A program made the translations under genes and the position numbers. From Armatimonadota bacterium (GTDB taxonomy: Bacteria > Armatimonadota > Fimbriimonadia > Fimbriimonadales > Fimbriimonadaceae), in assembly GCA_018268255.1 (NCBI GenBank), contig JAFDWX010000004.1, positions 248,001-312,000 on the forward strand: 64,000 nucleotides of DNA. The letters are read 5' to 3'. The notes under the pieces are model-generated. The model saw only the letters and a program-made list of their open reading frames with translations, searched no databases and had not been told where the DNA came from. The number at the start of each line of letters is the position of its first letter. The stretch's first letter is position 1. Below are positions 50,903-61,526 of this stretch, one piece after another.

Positions 50903-52807
50903 TCACTTTTCTTCTTTGTACTCGGCGTCGATAATGTCCTCACCCTGATTGGCTCCGACACCGGCGCCAACCTTCTCGCCTTCCTCCGCACCAGCTTCGT
51001 TGGAAGTTGCCTGGTACATCTTTTCAGCAAGCGAATGGGATTCGGATTCCAACTCGTTGAACGCAGAACGGATTTCGTCTTCGTTGTCGCCTGCAACTGC
51101 CTTTCGCAGTGCCGCAACTTTGTCCTCGATCCGACCTTTGTCGTTCGGGTCGACCTTGTCTCCCGCATCTCGCAGAGTCTTTTCAACCGAATAGGCGAGC
51201 TGATCCGCCTTGTTCTTGAGCTCCGCGAAATCCCGTGCCTTCTGGTCGGTGGAAGCGTTGGTTTCTGCTTCCTTCATCATCCTGTCGATCTCGTCGCGGT
51301 TGAGGTTGCCCGAACCGGTGATCGTGATCTTCTGCTGGTTTCCGGTGCCGAGGTCCTTTGCACTTACCTGGAGAATTCCGTTCGCGTCGATGTCGAATGT
51401 GACTTCGATTTGTGGCACTCGGGCAGGTGCTGGCGGAATACCAGCGAGGTGGAATCGGCCTAGGCTCTTGTTATCCCGTGCGAGCGGGCGCTCACCCTGC
51501 AGAATGTGAATCTCCACTTCTGGCTGATTGTCGACTGCAGTCGTGTACGTTCGGCTCTTTTTCGTTGGGATTGTCGTATTCCGTTCGATGATCTTGTCGA
51601 AAATTCCGCCCTGAGTCTCCACACCCAGGGAAAGCGGAGTGACATCGAGGAGAAGAATGTCCTTGACTTCTCCACCCAAGACGCCCGCCTGAATCGCAGC
51701 ACCAACGGCCACAACTTCATCGGGGTTAACCGATCGATTGGGCTCCTTGTTGGTGAGCTGTTTGACCAGCTCCTGCACCATCGGCATTCGGCTCGAGCCA
51801 CCCACCAAGATCACCTCGTTCAGCTCGTCTGCTTTCAGACGCGCATCTTCCAGGGCTTGATTGAATGGTCTCTTGATCCGACCCATCAGTCCCTCGCTCA
51901 GTTCCTCGAACTTGCTTCGGGTGAGGGTTACGTCGAGGTGCTTCGGCTGGTTATCTACCGCTGTAATGTACGGCAAATTGATATTCGTCGTGACCTGCGC
52001 GCTCAGCTCGATCTTTGCTTTCTCAGCGGCCTCGCGAAGGCGCTGAAGAGCGTCTTTCTGTTGAAGCAAGTCGATGCCTTGCTCCTTTTTGAATTCGCTT
52101 GCAAGATACTCCACGATGACTTGGTCAAAATCGTCACCGCCCAAGTGGCTGTCGCCCGCGGTCGATCGAACTTCTATCAGGCCTTCGCTGACATCCAGGA
52201 CCGAGACGTCGAAGGTACCACCGCCCAAGTCGAACACGAGAATTGTCTCGCTACCCTTTTTGTCAATTCCGTAGGCCAGCGAAGCTGCAGTCGGCTCGTT
52301 GATGATCCGGAGCACCTTCATGCCCGCGATCTCACCCGCGTTTTTGGTTGCAGTGCGCTGCGAGTCATTGAAGTAGGCGGGCACCGTGATGACGGCTTGG
52401 TCGACGGTCGTCCCCAAGTAAGCCTCAGCGTCGGCTTTCAGCTTCTGCAGGATCATCGCGCTGATCTCTTCGGGGGTGAAATCTTTATCGACTGCGGTGA
52501 CGTGGGCAACGGCCATGCCCTTGCTATCCTCTTTCACACGGTAAGCCACACGCTTGGCTTCTTCTGAAACCTCACTGAATTTGTGGCCCATAAATCGCTT
52601 GATGGAAGCGATGGTGTTTTCGGGGTTCACCACAGCCTGGCGCTTGGCGGTTACGCCGACCATGCGCTCTCCGTTATTCTTGAAAGCCACCACGCTGGGC
52701 ATGGTGCGAGTGCCTTCTGCCGTGGCAATGACGACCGGCTCTCCACCTTCCATCACAGCCACAACCGAATTTGTGGTTCCTAAGTCAATTCCTACAACGC
52801 GTCCCAT
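50903..52807 (-). CDS. dnaK: chaperone DnaK (Hsp70)
   Basis: 634 residues. ATPase domain with [32 protein letters not shown] and [14 protein letters not shown]; substrate domain with [15 protein letters not shown]-terminal helical lid and a conserved-style acidic tail ([12 protein letters not shown]). It binds unfolded stretches with ATP-driven cycling, aided by DnaJ (59.2 kb) and GrpE (not in the window). Ribosome site GAGG is eight bases upstream. grpE is not linked, unlike in many dnaK operons. Confidence 0.98.
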
Positions 52808-52829: not shown

Positions 52830-52865
52830 CTCAAGGCAAAAGATTTGAGCCTATGAGACTCACTT
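52830..52865. promoter_or_regulatory. HAIR-like HspR operator upstream of dnaK
   Basis: TTTGAGC-N7-ACTCACT (52845-52865) fits HspR's CTTGAGT-N7-ACTCAAG at 10 of 14 positions with exact spacing. A separate exact half-site ACTCAAG lies at 52830-52836. The site is 38 bases from the dnaK ATG, where HspR would block transcription. Confidence 0.5.
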
Positions 52866-52955
52866 GTTACTTGTAACGCTAGTTATACCCGAAGGGTTCC
52901 AATTGGTTAGACGAATTTCGGCTCGAACTCTGTGATGAGCCTATTTGGTCTGAGA

Positions 52956-58175: not shown

Positions 58176-59069
58176 TTAAGCTACTGCCAACAGGTTTAGC
58201 TGTTCTTCAGCACGCGCAACTTCTCGCACCATAAACTCCTGAATGCTGGGATACTGTGCCGACGGCAACCCAACCTCCTGGGCGACAAACGGATCAATAT
58301 CCCAGCTGCAACAACCCTGATTATTGGTAAATCCGGCTTGATGTGCGAGGGTATTCGCCAAGGAAACGACGCAAATCGCCTTATAGTGATTCACGGCGCG
58401 CTCTGGGTAATGATGGAAAAGAACCACATCTCGAACCAAGGGGCTTAGATTCCATTTTTCGGCCAAGATGCCGCCCGCATCAGAATGGGTCCAACCGAGG
58501 TTGGCTCCTTCGATCGTATATACGGGCTGACTTTCAGACTGACTGGTGGTCAGCACGGACTCCCAGATCCGCTCTGCAAACCTCTGATTGACGAGCATGC
58601 CGATATCGTGGAGCATCCCGGCACTGTAAAGTTCCTCTGAATTGGGAAGCTTGAGCAGCTTTGCCAGCACCTTCGAGCCGATGGCAACAGCGTAAGAGTG
58701 GCGCCAGTACTCGCGTTGATTGAAGTACGTCGTGGAATGTCGATCGTCGGTCATGGCCTGGAAAGCCAGGTTCATCATGATACTCTTGAGCGAGCCGATC
58801 CCGATCACAGCAATTGCGCGCGCACAGTTTTCGACCGTGCCGCATCCAAATTGGGCGCTGTTTGCCACCTTGAGGAGTTTTGCGGCCATCGCAGGGTCCT
58901 TTTCGATCACAACTTCGAGCTCCCTTGCTCCTACCGATGGGTCATCCGCACGCTTCAAAACTAGCCGAGCCGCCTCTGATAGGACGGGCAAGTTTTCACA
59001 CCTGGAGACTCTTATTCCCAACGATTCGATGTCCACAGCTTGAATTGTGGAAGTTTCAACAACTTTCAT
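58176..59069 (-). CDS. HDOD domain protein
   Basis: 297 residues, paralogue of the next gene: LPVLSEAARLVLKRADD, VIEKDPAMAAKLLKVANS, IAVIGIGSLKSIMMNL, SAGMLHDIGMLVNQRFAE and GWTHSDAGGILAEKW. The pair D-x-H-D in MLHDIG is kept. ATG 59069 (MKVVETST) is preferred to the earlier frame start. It diverges from dnaJ-hspR, whose operator region lies about 100 bases away. Signalling role inferred; the signal is unknown. Confidence 0.85.
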   Translation of the reverse strand: MKVVETSTIQAVDIESLGIRVSRCENLPVLSEAARLVLKRADDPSVGARELEVVIEKDPAMAAKLLKVANSAQFGCGTVENCARAIAVIGIGSLKSIMMNLAFQAMTDDRHSTTYFNQREYWRHSYAVAIGSKVLAKLLKLPNSEELYSAGMLHDIGMLVNQRFAERIWESVLTTSQSESQPVYTIEGANLGWTHSDAGGILAEKWNLSPLVRDVVLFHHYPERAVNHYKAICVVSLANTLAHQAGFTNNQGCCSWDIDPFVAQEVGLPSAQYPSIQEFMVREVARAEEQLNLLAVA

Positions 59070-59158
59070 TGGACCTAAAAATAGGGACAACTTTGTGTAC
59101 AGATTTTCGCACTGGCAAATTTTCCGTGCTTCACCTGAAATCGAACCTTTTTGGGTGA

Positions 59159-59179
59159 CTTGAGCGTTATATACTCATA
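59159..59179. promoter_or_regulatory. HAIR-like HspR operator upstream of dnaJ-hspR
   Basis: CTTGAGC-N7-ACTCATA (59159-59179) fits CTTGAGT-N7-ACTCAAG at 11 of 14 positions with exact spacing. It ends 20 bases before the dnaJ ATG and overlaps TATA-rich promoter-like sequence. HspR is encoded in the same operon, as expected for autoregulation. Confidence 0.65.
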
Positions 59180-59199
59180 TATTTGAGCGAACTGAGCTT

Positions 59200-60267
59200 A
59201 TGGCAAAGGACTTCTACAAGATTCTTGGACTAGACCGGACCGCGGATGACCGGGCCGTTAAAGCTGCTTACCGAAAGCTTGCCCGCAAGTACCACCCGGA
59301 CCTCAACCCCAATGACAAGGAGGCCGAGAACAGGTTCAAAGAGGTCCAGGAAGCTTATGAAGTTCTTTCAGATCCCGAAAAGCGAGCGAAATATGATCGA
59401 TTTGGTGCGAATTGGGATCGGGTAGTTGACGACCCCAGCCAGTGGGGCGGCTCCGGCGTTAATTTCGACCCGGGGGATTTAGGCTCCATCTTCTCTCAGT
59501 TTTTTGGTGGCGGCGGATTTTCGGAGGCAGATGTTGCTCAACCACGAAATCGCGGTGCCCAGCCGTCTGACGTCGAAAAAACTGTTGAGCTCACCCTGGA
59601 AGAAATCGACTCTGGCACCAAGCGCACGTTGACATATCAAGTCAACGACTCGTGCAAGACGTGCGATGGAACTGGGCAAGTCCGACTCCGGCAGCCGAAG
59701 CCGTGCAGACAATGTGGCGGTTCGGGCCAGATGCGCTCAGTGTTTGGAGTTCAGCCCTGCACGGCTTGTCACGGGCGAGGAAGAACAGACCTGGAGGCGT
59801 GCCCAACCTGCAGCGGCGCGGGTGTACTCCCCACGACCAAACGGGTGGAGGTAACCATTCCGGCTGGTATCCAGGAAGGCAAGAAGCTCCGCGTCCCCGG
59901 AAAGGGCTCTATGGGAGCCAACGGCCGCGCTGGCGACCTCTACGTTCTGGTCAAAGAACTCCCGCACAGCAACTTCAAGCGAAAAGGCGACGACTTGGAA
60001 ACAGAAGTTACTGTGCCGTATTATCGAGCACTGTTGGGCGGGGAAATCAAAGTGGACAGCATCCGTCCTGGATCGCTTTCGATGCGGATACCCGAATGCA
60101 CCCAGAGCGGACAGACCTTTCGGCTTGCTGACCAGGGCCTTTCTCTGTTGGGAGGTAAACGGGGCAACCTGCTCGTGAGGGTGAAAATCGGCATTCCCAA
60201 GGCACTGTCTTCGGAAGAAAAGGACCTACTGAAGAAGATTGAAGCCGGACAAGGAGTTCAGAAGTGA
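59200..60267 (+). CDS. dnaJ: chaperone DnaJ (Hsp40, type I)
   Basis: 355 residues. The J domain (1-70) has the HPD loop (KYHPDLNPNDKEAE) that stimulates DnaK. A short Gly/Phe region (FFGGGGFSEAD) follows. The zinc domain has four CxxCxGxG repeats: CKTCDGTG, CRQCGGSG, CTACHGRG and CPTCSGAG. The C-terminal substrate-binding beta domains end at VQK. It hands unfolded proteins to DnaK. The hspR start overlaps its stop (GTGA), the arrangement known from actinobacterial dnaK-operon ends. Confidence 0.97.
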   Translation: MAKDFYKILGLDRTADDRAVKAAYRKLARKYHPDLNPNDKEAENRFKEVQEAYEVLSDPEKRAKYDRFGANWDRVVDDPSQWGGSGVNFDPGDLGSIFSQFFGGGGFSEADVAQPRNRGAQPSDVEKTVELTLEEIDSGTKRTLTYQVNDSCKTCDGTGQVRLRQPKPCRQCGGSGQMRSVFGVQPCTACHGRGRTDLEACPTCSGAGVLPTTKRVEVTIPAGIQEGKKLRVPGKGSMGANGRAGDLYVLVKELPHSNFKRKGDDLETEVTVPYYRALLGGEIKVDSIRPGSLSMRIPECTQSGQTFRLADQGLSLLGGKRGNLLVRVKIGIPKALSSEEKDLLKKIEAGQGVQK

Positions 60268-60665
60268 GAAGCGAGCATCAGCCGGTTTACATGATTGGAG
60301 TGGCTTCGAAACTGTGCGGCATCCACCCACAGACACTTCGCCAATACGAGCGAATGGGCTTTATCGCGCCCAGCCGCGTTGGAGCCAAAAACCGTTTGTA
60401 TAGCGAGGCGGACATTTTTCGCGTCAAGAAGATTCAGCGGTTAACACAGGAACTAGGGGTGAATCTCGCGGGTGTGGAGATCATTCTGAAGTTGCTCGAT
60501 GATATGGAGTCGATGCGTTCTGACATGGAGCAAGAATTCGATGACTTTCGGCGAGAAGCAGAGGAACGAATCCATCGCCTGCTCAGTAATAGCAATTTGC
60601 CCGTCCGAAAAGATGAGCCTTTGCTTCCGGAGAGGCACCTGAAGTTTAAGAACACCGATTTTTGA
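60264..60665 (+). CDS. hspR: MerR-type heat-shock repressor HspR
   Basis: 133 residues. The winged helix is the HspR signature: YMIGVASKLCGIHPQTLRQYERMGFI, RLYSEADIFRVKKIQRL and the dimerising ELGVNLAGVEIILKL. HspR binds HAIR inverted repeats and, with DnaK as co-repressor in Streptomyces, shuts off heat-shock genes. Starting with GTG inside the dnaJ stop (GTGA, after AAGGAG), it is coupled to dnaJ. Two HAIR-like sites in the window fit it. The C-terminal tail (about 35 residues) is divergent. Confidence 0.93.
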   Translation: MRSEHQPVYMIGVASKLCGIHPQTLRQYERMGFIAPSRVGAKNRLYSEADIFRVKKIQRLTQELGVNLAGVEIILKLLDDMESMRSDMEQEFDDFRREAEERIHRLLSNSNLPVRKDEPLLPERHLKFKNTDF

Positions 60666-60683: not shown

Positions 60684-61526
60684 ATGACATTTGCCCTTCT
60701 TGCTATTTGTGCTGTTCACCTTGCTCCGACCATTAAGGAAGAATTGGACGTTACCTACAACAAAGTGGCGGGTAAAGAGCTCAAAATGGATATCTTCCAA
60801 CCGGAGGCAAAACCTGTTGCCATGAGACCAGCCATTATCGTTATCCATGGTGGAGCATGGATGGCTGGAGATCGGAAGGACATGCACGCTCTGGCTCGAG
60901 AATTTGCAAAGAAAGGGTTCTTCGCGGCAAGCGTTCAGTATCGCTTGGCCCCCATGTTCAAGTATCCCACCATGATTGATGATGTGCAGACTGCGGTGCG
61001 ATTTTTGAGGGCCAATGCGGGCAAATACTCATTAGATAAGAATCGTTTTGCAGCAACCGGTGCCAGCGCTGGTGGGCATCTCTCTTTGCTATTGGGATTT
61101 ACCGACACGCGTGATCCGAAGCCGACCGCCTTTCCGAAGGAGTCCAGCAAGGTGCAGGTTGTGCTCAATATCTTTGGGCCGACGGATATGAGGAGAGATT
61201 TTCCTTCTTCCCTAGATCCATTGTATTTCGCATTACTGGGCAAAAAGCGCTCGGAAGCAGCACGGGAAATCGAGCTAGCTTCTCCACTTTACTATGTCAA
61301 CAGCAGCGTGGCTCCCGTGTTTACCATTCATGGTGAAAGTGATCCGCTCGTGCCGGTTATCCAAGCTAAAATACTTGATGAAGCGCTTGCCAAAGTGAAG
61401 GTGGATCATAAAACGGTATTGATACCTAATATGGGGCATGCACTTCCGATCGAAAGAAAAGAAGTACTGGATGCCCTGACTCAGGGCATCCAGTTTGTAT
61501 GTGATAAACTTAACGTGAAGAGTTAA
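60684..61526 (+). CDS. alpha/beta-hydrolase (esterase-like)
   Basis: 280 residues. A short hydrophobic N-terminus (MTFALLAICAVHLAP) may be a signal peptide or anchor. The hydrolase core has VIHGGAWMAGDRKD (oxyanion HGGAW), FAATGASAGGHLSLL (nucleophile Ser in GASAG), FTIHGESDPLVP (Asp) and NMGHALP (His). This is the layout of hormone-sensitive-lipase-like or feruloyl-type carboxylesterases, with unknown substrate. It begins 18 bases after hspR, so it may be cotranscribed with the heat-shock genes. Confidence 0.85.
   Translation: MTFALLAICAVHLAPTIKEELDVTYNKVAGKELKMDIFQPEAKPVAMRPAIIVIHGGAWMAGDRKDMHALAREFAKKGFFAASVQYRLAPMFKYPTMIDDVQTAVRFLRANAGKYSLDKNRFAATGASAGGHLSLLLGFTDTRDPKPTAFPKESSKVQVVLNIFGPTDMRRDFPSSLDPLYFALLGKKRSEAAREIELASPLYYVNSSVAPVFTIHGESDPLVPVIQAKILDEALAKVKVDHKTVLIPNMGHALPIERKEVLDALTQGIQFVCDKLNVKS

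Follow-up and report, generated by a model that had tools for sequence, protein, structure and literature searches.

The window analysed here, i.e. the whole 64-kb stretch of DNA, carries on its forward strand a dnaJ gene (59200-60267, 355 aa) followed by hspR (60264-60665, 133 aa), which encodes a MerR-type repressor, begins with GTG and overlaps the dnaJ stop by 4 nt (GTGA). A palindrome, CTTGAGC-gttatat-ACTCATA (59159-59179, forward strand), lies 41 nt before the dnaJ ATG; gene order, overlap and palindrome are all as described in the earlier note on this DNA. Pfam comparisons find the J, CXXCXGXG and DnaJ_C domains in the dnaJ product, and a full MerR DNA-binding domain (Pfam MerR domains) in that of 60264-60665. 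The latter scores 108.5 bits against the NCBIfam HeatShock_HspR equivalog model NF047375 (cut-off 105), so its assignment as HspR holds. Homologue searches locate HspR in 100 of 101 relatives and, contig breaks excepted, dnaJ is 5' of hspR in the loci examined in the family and at order/phylum level. HspR also matches CbpM (4e-7) and Thermus DafA (PDB 9dvi, 4.5e-6), both of which are DnaJ-binding modulators, a similarity hinting that HspR may contact DnaJ.

An alpha/beta hydrolase gene (BD-FAE; 60684-61526, forward strand) follows hspR at a distance of 18 nt, and some 14 other loci in the family have a relative of it close 3' of hspR, so the dnaJ-hspR transcript may include it as a third gene. 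A perfect 13-bp hairpin (61466-61494), terminator-like on both strands, is located within the 3' end of the hydrolase ORF. On the other side of the locus, a divergent HDOD-domain gene (58176-59090, reverse strand) starts some 70-90 bp 5' of the palindrome, and an HDOD-like gene is likewise divergent in one relative (G025, L138). The window's genome (G000) has a second dnaJ (G000:C5:235266-236303, L274), located after an rpoZ-like gene; its product is fuller and scores over the TIGR02349 cut-off, for which reason the HspR-linked DnaJ is regarded as a paralogue. Neither a HAIR nor an ECF motif was found upstream of this second copy, which is presumably the housekeeping one. The HspR-linked DnaJ is ~40-50 residues shorter in many relatives, and the DnaJ match at G009:C1:2008131-2009054 skips model positions 155-194, i.e. 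the central zinc-finger region.

The palindrome has the exact N7 spacer that the earlier note ascribed to it, and matches the HAIR operator, CTTGAGT-N7-ACTCAAG, at 11 of its 14 bases. When up to 3 mismatches to HAIR are allowed, the 64-kb window has 4 sites where 2.5 are expected, and the bare HAIR pattern has 264 strand matches genome-wide, compared with 474 for the reversed control. Pattern-only significance was rejected as proof of HAIR, since sites with three mismatches occur at chance level; matches with two mismatches at ATP synthase genes (L092) and in other coding regions of the window's own genome (L091, L096) were set aside as noise. It is conservation, not the pattern alone, that makes the site significant.

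The earlier note proposed to check other Armatimonadota for conservation of the palindrome 5' of dnaJ-hspR; this check finds HAIR there (up to 4 of 14 mismatches) in 29 of 30 genera of the family, the related genomes in such counts not being independent samples. An independent collection names the relatives as Armatimonadetes, several of them as Fimbriimonadaceae. HAIR is located at -41/-43 from the dnaJ start, nearly always within 32-44 nt; two genomes (L030, L057) carry it without any mismatch. Information in the family alignment is about 0 in the DNA 5' of HAIR, at -40 to -17, and 1.0-2.0 bits over most of both HAIR arms; the operator is kept at a nearly fixed place, while its flanks and spacer drift. 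When scored with a 32-column matrix made without the window sequence, the window's site reaches 45.9 and the next best on either strand of the 64 kb only 15.5. With a sequence-only operator model (R1, built from 40 family sequences including the window's own, and searched in 101 whole genomes), the sole match at E<=1 in the window's genome is the site before dnaJ-hspR. By these comparisons, the HAIR of dnaJ-hspR is a real, evolutionarily conserved element.

HAIR sites are also associated with other chaperone genes. The 20 secondary R1 places examined in relatives are directly 5' of dnaK (11), clpB (8) or dnaJ (1). In the window, dnaK (50903-52807, reverse strand, 634 aa) has a HAIR-like operator, AGTGAGT-ctcatag-GCTCAAA (AGTGAGTctcatagGCTCAAA; 52844-52864, reverse strand), 57 nt before its ATG, and further HAIRs are upstream of clpB (TTTTAGTctaggagGCTCAAT) and hsp20 (CTTGAGTcctatacACTAACG, G000:C5:307522-307542) in the same genome. 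All three are weaker than the site of dnaJ-hspR; p is ~0.005 for each when the upstream region of the gene concerned is shuffled. The dnaK HAIR is only seventh in the 64-kb window by matrix score, so its assignment depends on position and not on score alone. Most other Armatimonadota families examined have HAIR 5' of dnaK, typically at loci with dnaK, dnaJ and hspR side by side. Such a distribution over chaperone genes is expected of an HspR regulon, and supports one. The autoregulation via HspR and HAIR predicted in the earlier note thus gains comparative support, but as a description of the circuit it is incomplete, in that HAIR also marks dnaK, clpB and hsp20; it likewise lacked the third half-site and the ECF-type look of the promoter. 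No CIRCE/HrcA site (TTAGCACTC-N9-GAGTGCTAA) was found at dnaJ-hspR, the single CIRCE-like site of the genome being on another contig (C2:167829). In another Armatimonadota family, a weak HAIR-model match is 52 bp from a perfect CIRCE (G097:C97:80754-80857), which suggests joint HspR/HrcA control at that locus.

The third half-site, TTGAG (59183-59187, forward strand), is a direct repeat of the left HAIR arm 23 bp downstream. Of the 55 family sequences 46 have it, and its columns (24-28, counted from the first HAIR base) carry 0.77-1.43 bits. A fourth half-site, which in a few genomes (L054, L055) completes a second HAIR spanning the start codon, is not conserved and was rejected. HspR of Helicobacter has been proposed to nucleate on HAIR and then to recruit dimers via flanking determinants, over 70-80 bp (PMC6102357); by analogy, the third half-site is a concrete candidate for a flanking determinant of the type proposed for cooperative HspR binding there.

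The promoters with which these operators are associated look, on the basis of their motifs, to be of the ECF type. The SigE/SigH consensus of corynebacteria and mycobacteria is GGAAC-N18-19-GTT or GGAAYR-N17-GTT (PMC10012870, PMC4803200), and the consensus of the family's chaperone promoters equals it. In the window, an imperfect ECF-type -35 element, CGAAC (59142-59146, forward strand), weaker than the family consensus GAAAC, is separated by 19 nt from a -10 GTT (59166-59168, forward strand) inside the HAIR spacer. A G[AG]AAC-like element (consensus GAAAC) occurs at HAIR -16 in 27 of 48 family sequences, where 1000 shuffles gave at most 7; GT occupies HAIR positions 7-8 in every one of the 27. 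Among family promoters, the pair G[AGC]AAC..GT[TC] peaks at a spacing of 18 for dnaJ (32/52), dnaK (14/17) and clpB (8/14), with low counts at other spacings and shuffle means of 0.1-0.4. The window's genome has motif matches of the form GGAAC-N18-GTT at dnaK (52875-52900, reverse strand) and at clpB, and GGAAC-N19-GTT at hsp20, where HAIR fills the spacer. The SigE/SigH-type sequence GGAAY-N18(19)-GTT is found family-wide at dnaJ, dnaK and clpB, the window's own dnaJ copy being imperfect (CGAAC-N19-GTT); some 40% of the family's dnaJ sequences lack a clear match to the ECF motif.

Between genera the ECF pair slides by 11-12 bp relative to HAIR, its own spacing staying at 18, rarely 19. Nine sequences from six genera have GTT/GTC 3-5 bp before HAIR, rather than 7 bp into it, again with the spacing of 18 kept (19 in one). 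This argues against explaining the ECF motif simply as a by-product of a conserved operator. Genome-wide, GGAACY-N16-CGTT gave no excess over the reversed control, so an ECF regulon, if there is one, would be small or hidden; a scan for GAAAC-N18-GTT likewise gave no excess over control, and the element is thus not callable by pattern alone. Outside the family, the ECF motif at spacing 18 was found at none of 44 dnaJ-hspR loci (nearly all non-Armatimonadota, mostly Campylobacterota), most of which carry HAIR-like sites.

The window's genome has nine ECF matches, none of them over the cut-off of TIGR02947 (SigH_actino), and provides two candidate ECF sigmas for these promoters, the products of G000:C5:309584 and C8:233124. 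The former, of a candidate family beginning MLFRK, is encoded at G000:C5:309584-310105 (L253); in several relatives a GGAAC-N18/19-GTT is found near -56 of the sigma gene itself, not clearly so in the window's genome. This gene is ~2 kb from the HAIR-bearing hsp20, and its relatives overlap one that encodes an anti-sigma-like protein.

The strongest alternative is that there is HspR/HAIR repression only, acting on an ordinary sigma-A promoter with its -10 TATACT inside HAIR, GAAAC having another role. Such a -10 is within many dnaJ operators, including 19 of the 27 sequences with the upstream element; a promoter scan of the locus gives GTGACT-17-TATATT (GTGACT at 59155, TATATT at 59178-59183) as alternative elements, and TTGACA-N17-TATAAT is used with HAIR in other families of the phylum. 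By contrast, TTGA[CT]A followed at 16-18 nt by TANNNT is absent from the family promoters of dnaJ (0/52), dnaK (0/17) and clpB (0/14), whereas an ECF motif with the spacing of 18 occurs in many of them and moves as a unit relative to HAIR, making a purely sigma-A promoter unlikely. Considerably less probable, indeed improbable, is that the HspR-like protein mainly modulates its partner DnaJ in a CbpM/DafA-like manner, the palindrome serving another regulator. The matches to CbpM and DafA, and the adjacency of hspR and dnaJ wherever the contig is long enough, are compatible with such a role; however, the DNA-binding domain is kept in full, the HspR equivalog cut-off is passed, and the operator at these loci is the HspR consensus HAIR, which also marks dnaK and clpB. 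That the palindrome is a chance match, as the mismatch counting in the window might imply, is refuted by its conservation across genera, the leave-one-out score and the restriction of the secondary sites to chaperone genes, and may be dismissed.

The preferred reading, to which we assign a probability of about 0.78, is that HspR represses dnaJ-hspR, dnaK, clpB and hsp20 via HAIR at ECF-type promoters, which would thus be under double control; gene order and the motifs with their conservation, placement and spacing are observed, HspR binding, repression, sigma use and a co-repressor role for DnaK inferred. HspR would act through HAIRs overlapping or abutting the promoters of dnaJ-hspR, dnaK, clpB and an hsp20. 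Work on Streptomyces identified DnaK as the HspR co-repressor. On heat or proteotoxic stress, unfolded proteins would occupy DnaK, probably with DnaJ, so that HspR would be left without its co-repressor and repression would be lifted. Because the family's promoters appear to be of the ECF type, the genes are probably expressed in full only when a stress sigma is active and HspR has been released. A larger HspR complex at dnaJ-hspR is suggested by the -10 GTT within HAIR and the third half-site near the expected transcript start.

The proposed circuit has clear parallels in studied systems. The Streptomyces HspR/HAIR regulon (dnaK operon, clpB, lon) appears, as judged from sequence comparison, to share with it the HspR family, the operator type, chaperone targets and autoregulation. 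By contrast with Streptomyces, hspR is here split from dnaK and is with dnaJ only, the promoters look ECF-type, and there is a third half-site at dnaJ-hspR. In Helicobacter/Campylobacter cbpA-hspR, a gene for a J-protein is likewise directly followed by hspR, with a HAIR-like site at the promoter and an operator that extends past HAIR (three-dimer model, PMC6102357). The promoters of the latter, however, are without GAAAC-N18-GTT, and the extra determinant is here a visible, conserved half-site. At M. tuberculosis clpB, an HspR site overlaps a SigH-regulated promoter (PMC4803200), the GGAAYR-N17-GTT consensus of which has spacing identical to that of the family's motif. The differences are that the phylum is another, that the ECF-type motif is here at dnaJ-hspR, dnaK, clpB and hsp20, and that no sigma of the genome exceeds the SigH_actino cut-off. 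By analogy with M. tuberculosis clpB, the family's promoters are likely ECF-driven and HspR-repressed.

Other Armatimonadota families present a different arrangement 5' of dnaK, where the left HAIR arm is often CTTGACA/CTTGATA and thus contains a sigma-A -35, which TATAAT-like -10s follow. One family (f5) has both promoter types; the window's family would have the SigE/SigH-type ECF promoter only, at dnaJ-hspR, dnaK, clpB and hsp20. It seems reasonably probable, if less so than the double control itself, that within the phylum HspR and HAIR were kept while the promoter class changed, the window's family having two stress inputs and an autoregulated operator with three half-sites.

The HspR/HAIR circuit as such is of a known kind; strong comparative evidence here extends it to the Armatimonadota, and the literature searched yielded no paper on the circuit in this phylum. 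What merits further attention is the occurrence, throughout the family, of ECF-type promoters under HspR operators, and the change in promoter class. The latter suggests a natural series in which a repressor-operator pair is kept and the sigma factor serving it is changed, in which the evolution of heat-shock regulation is testable. If this reading is true, chaperone expression in these bacteria would depend on two stress inputs.
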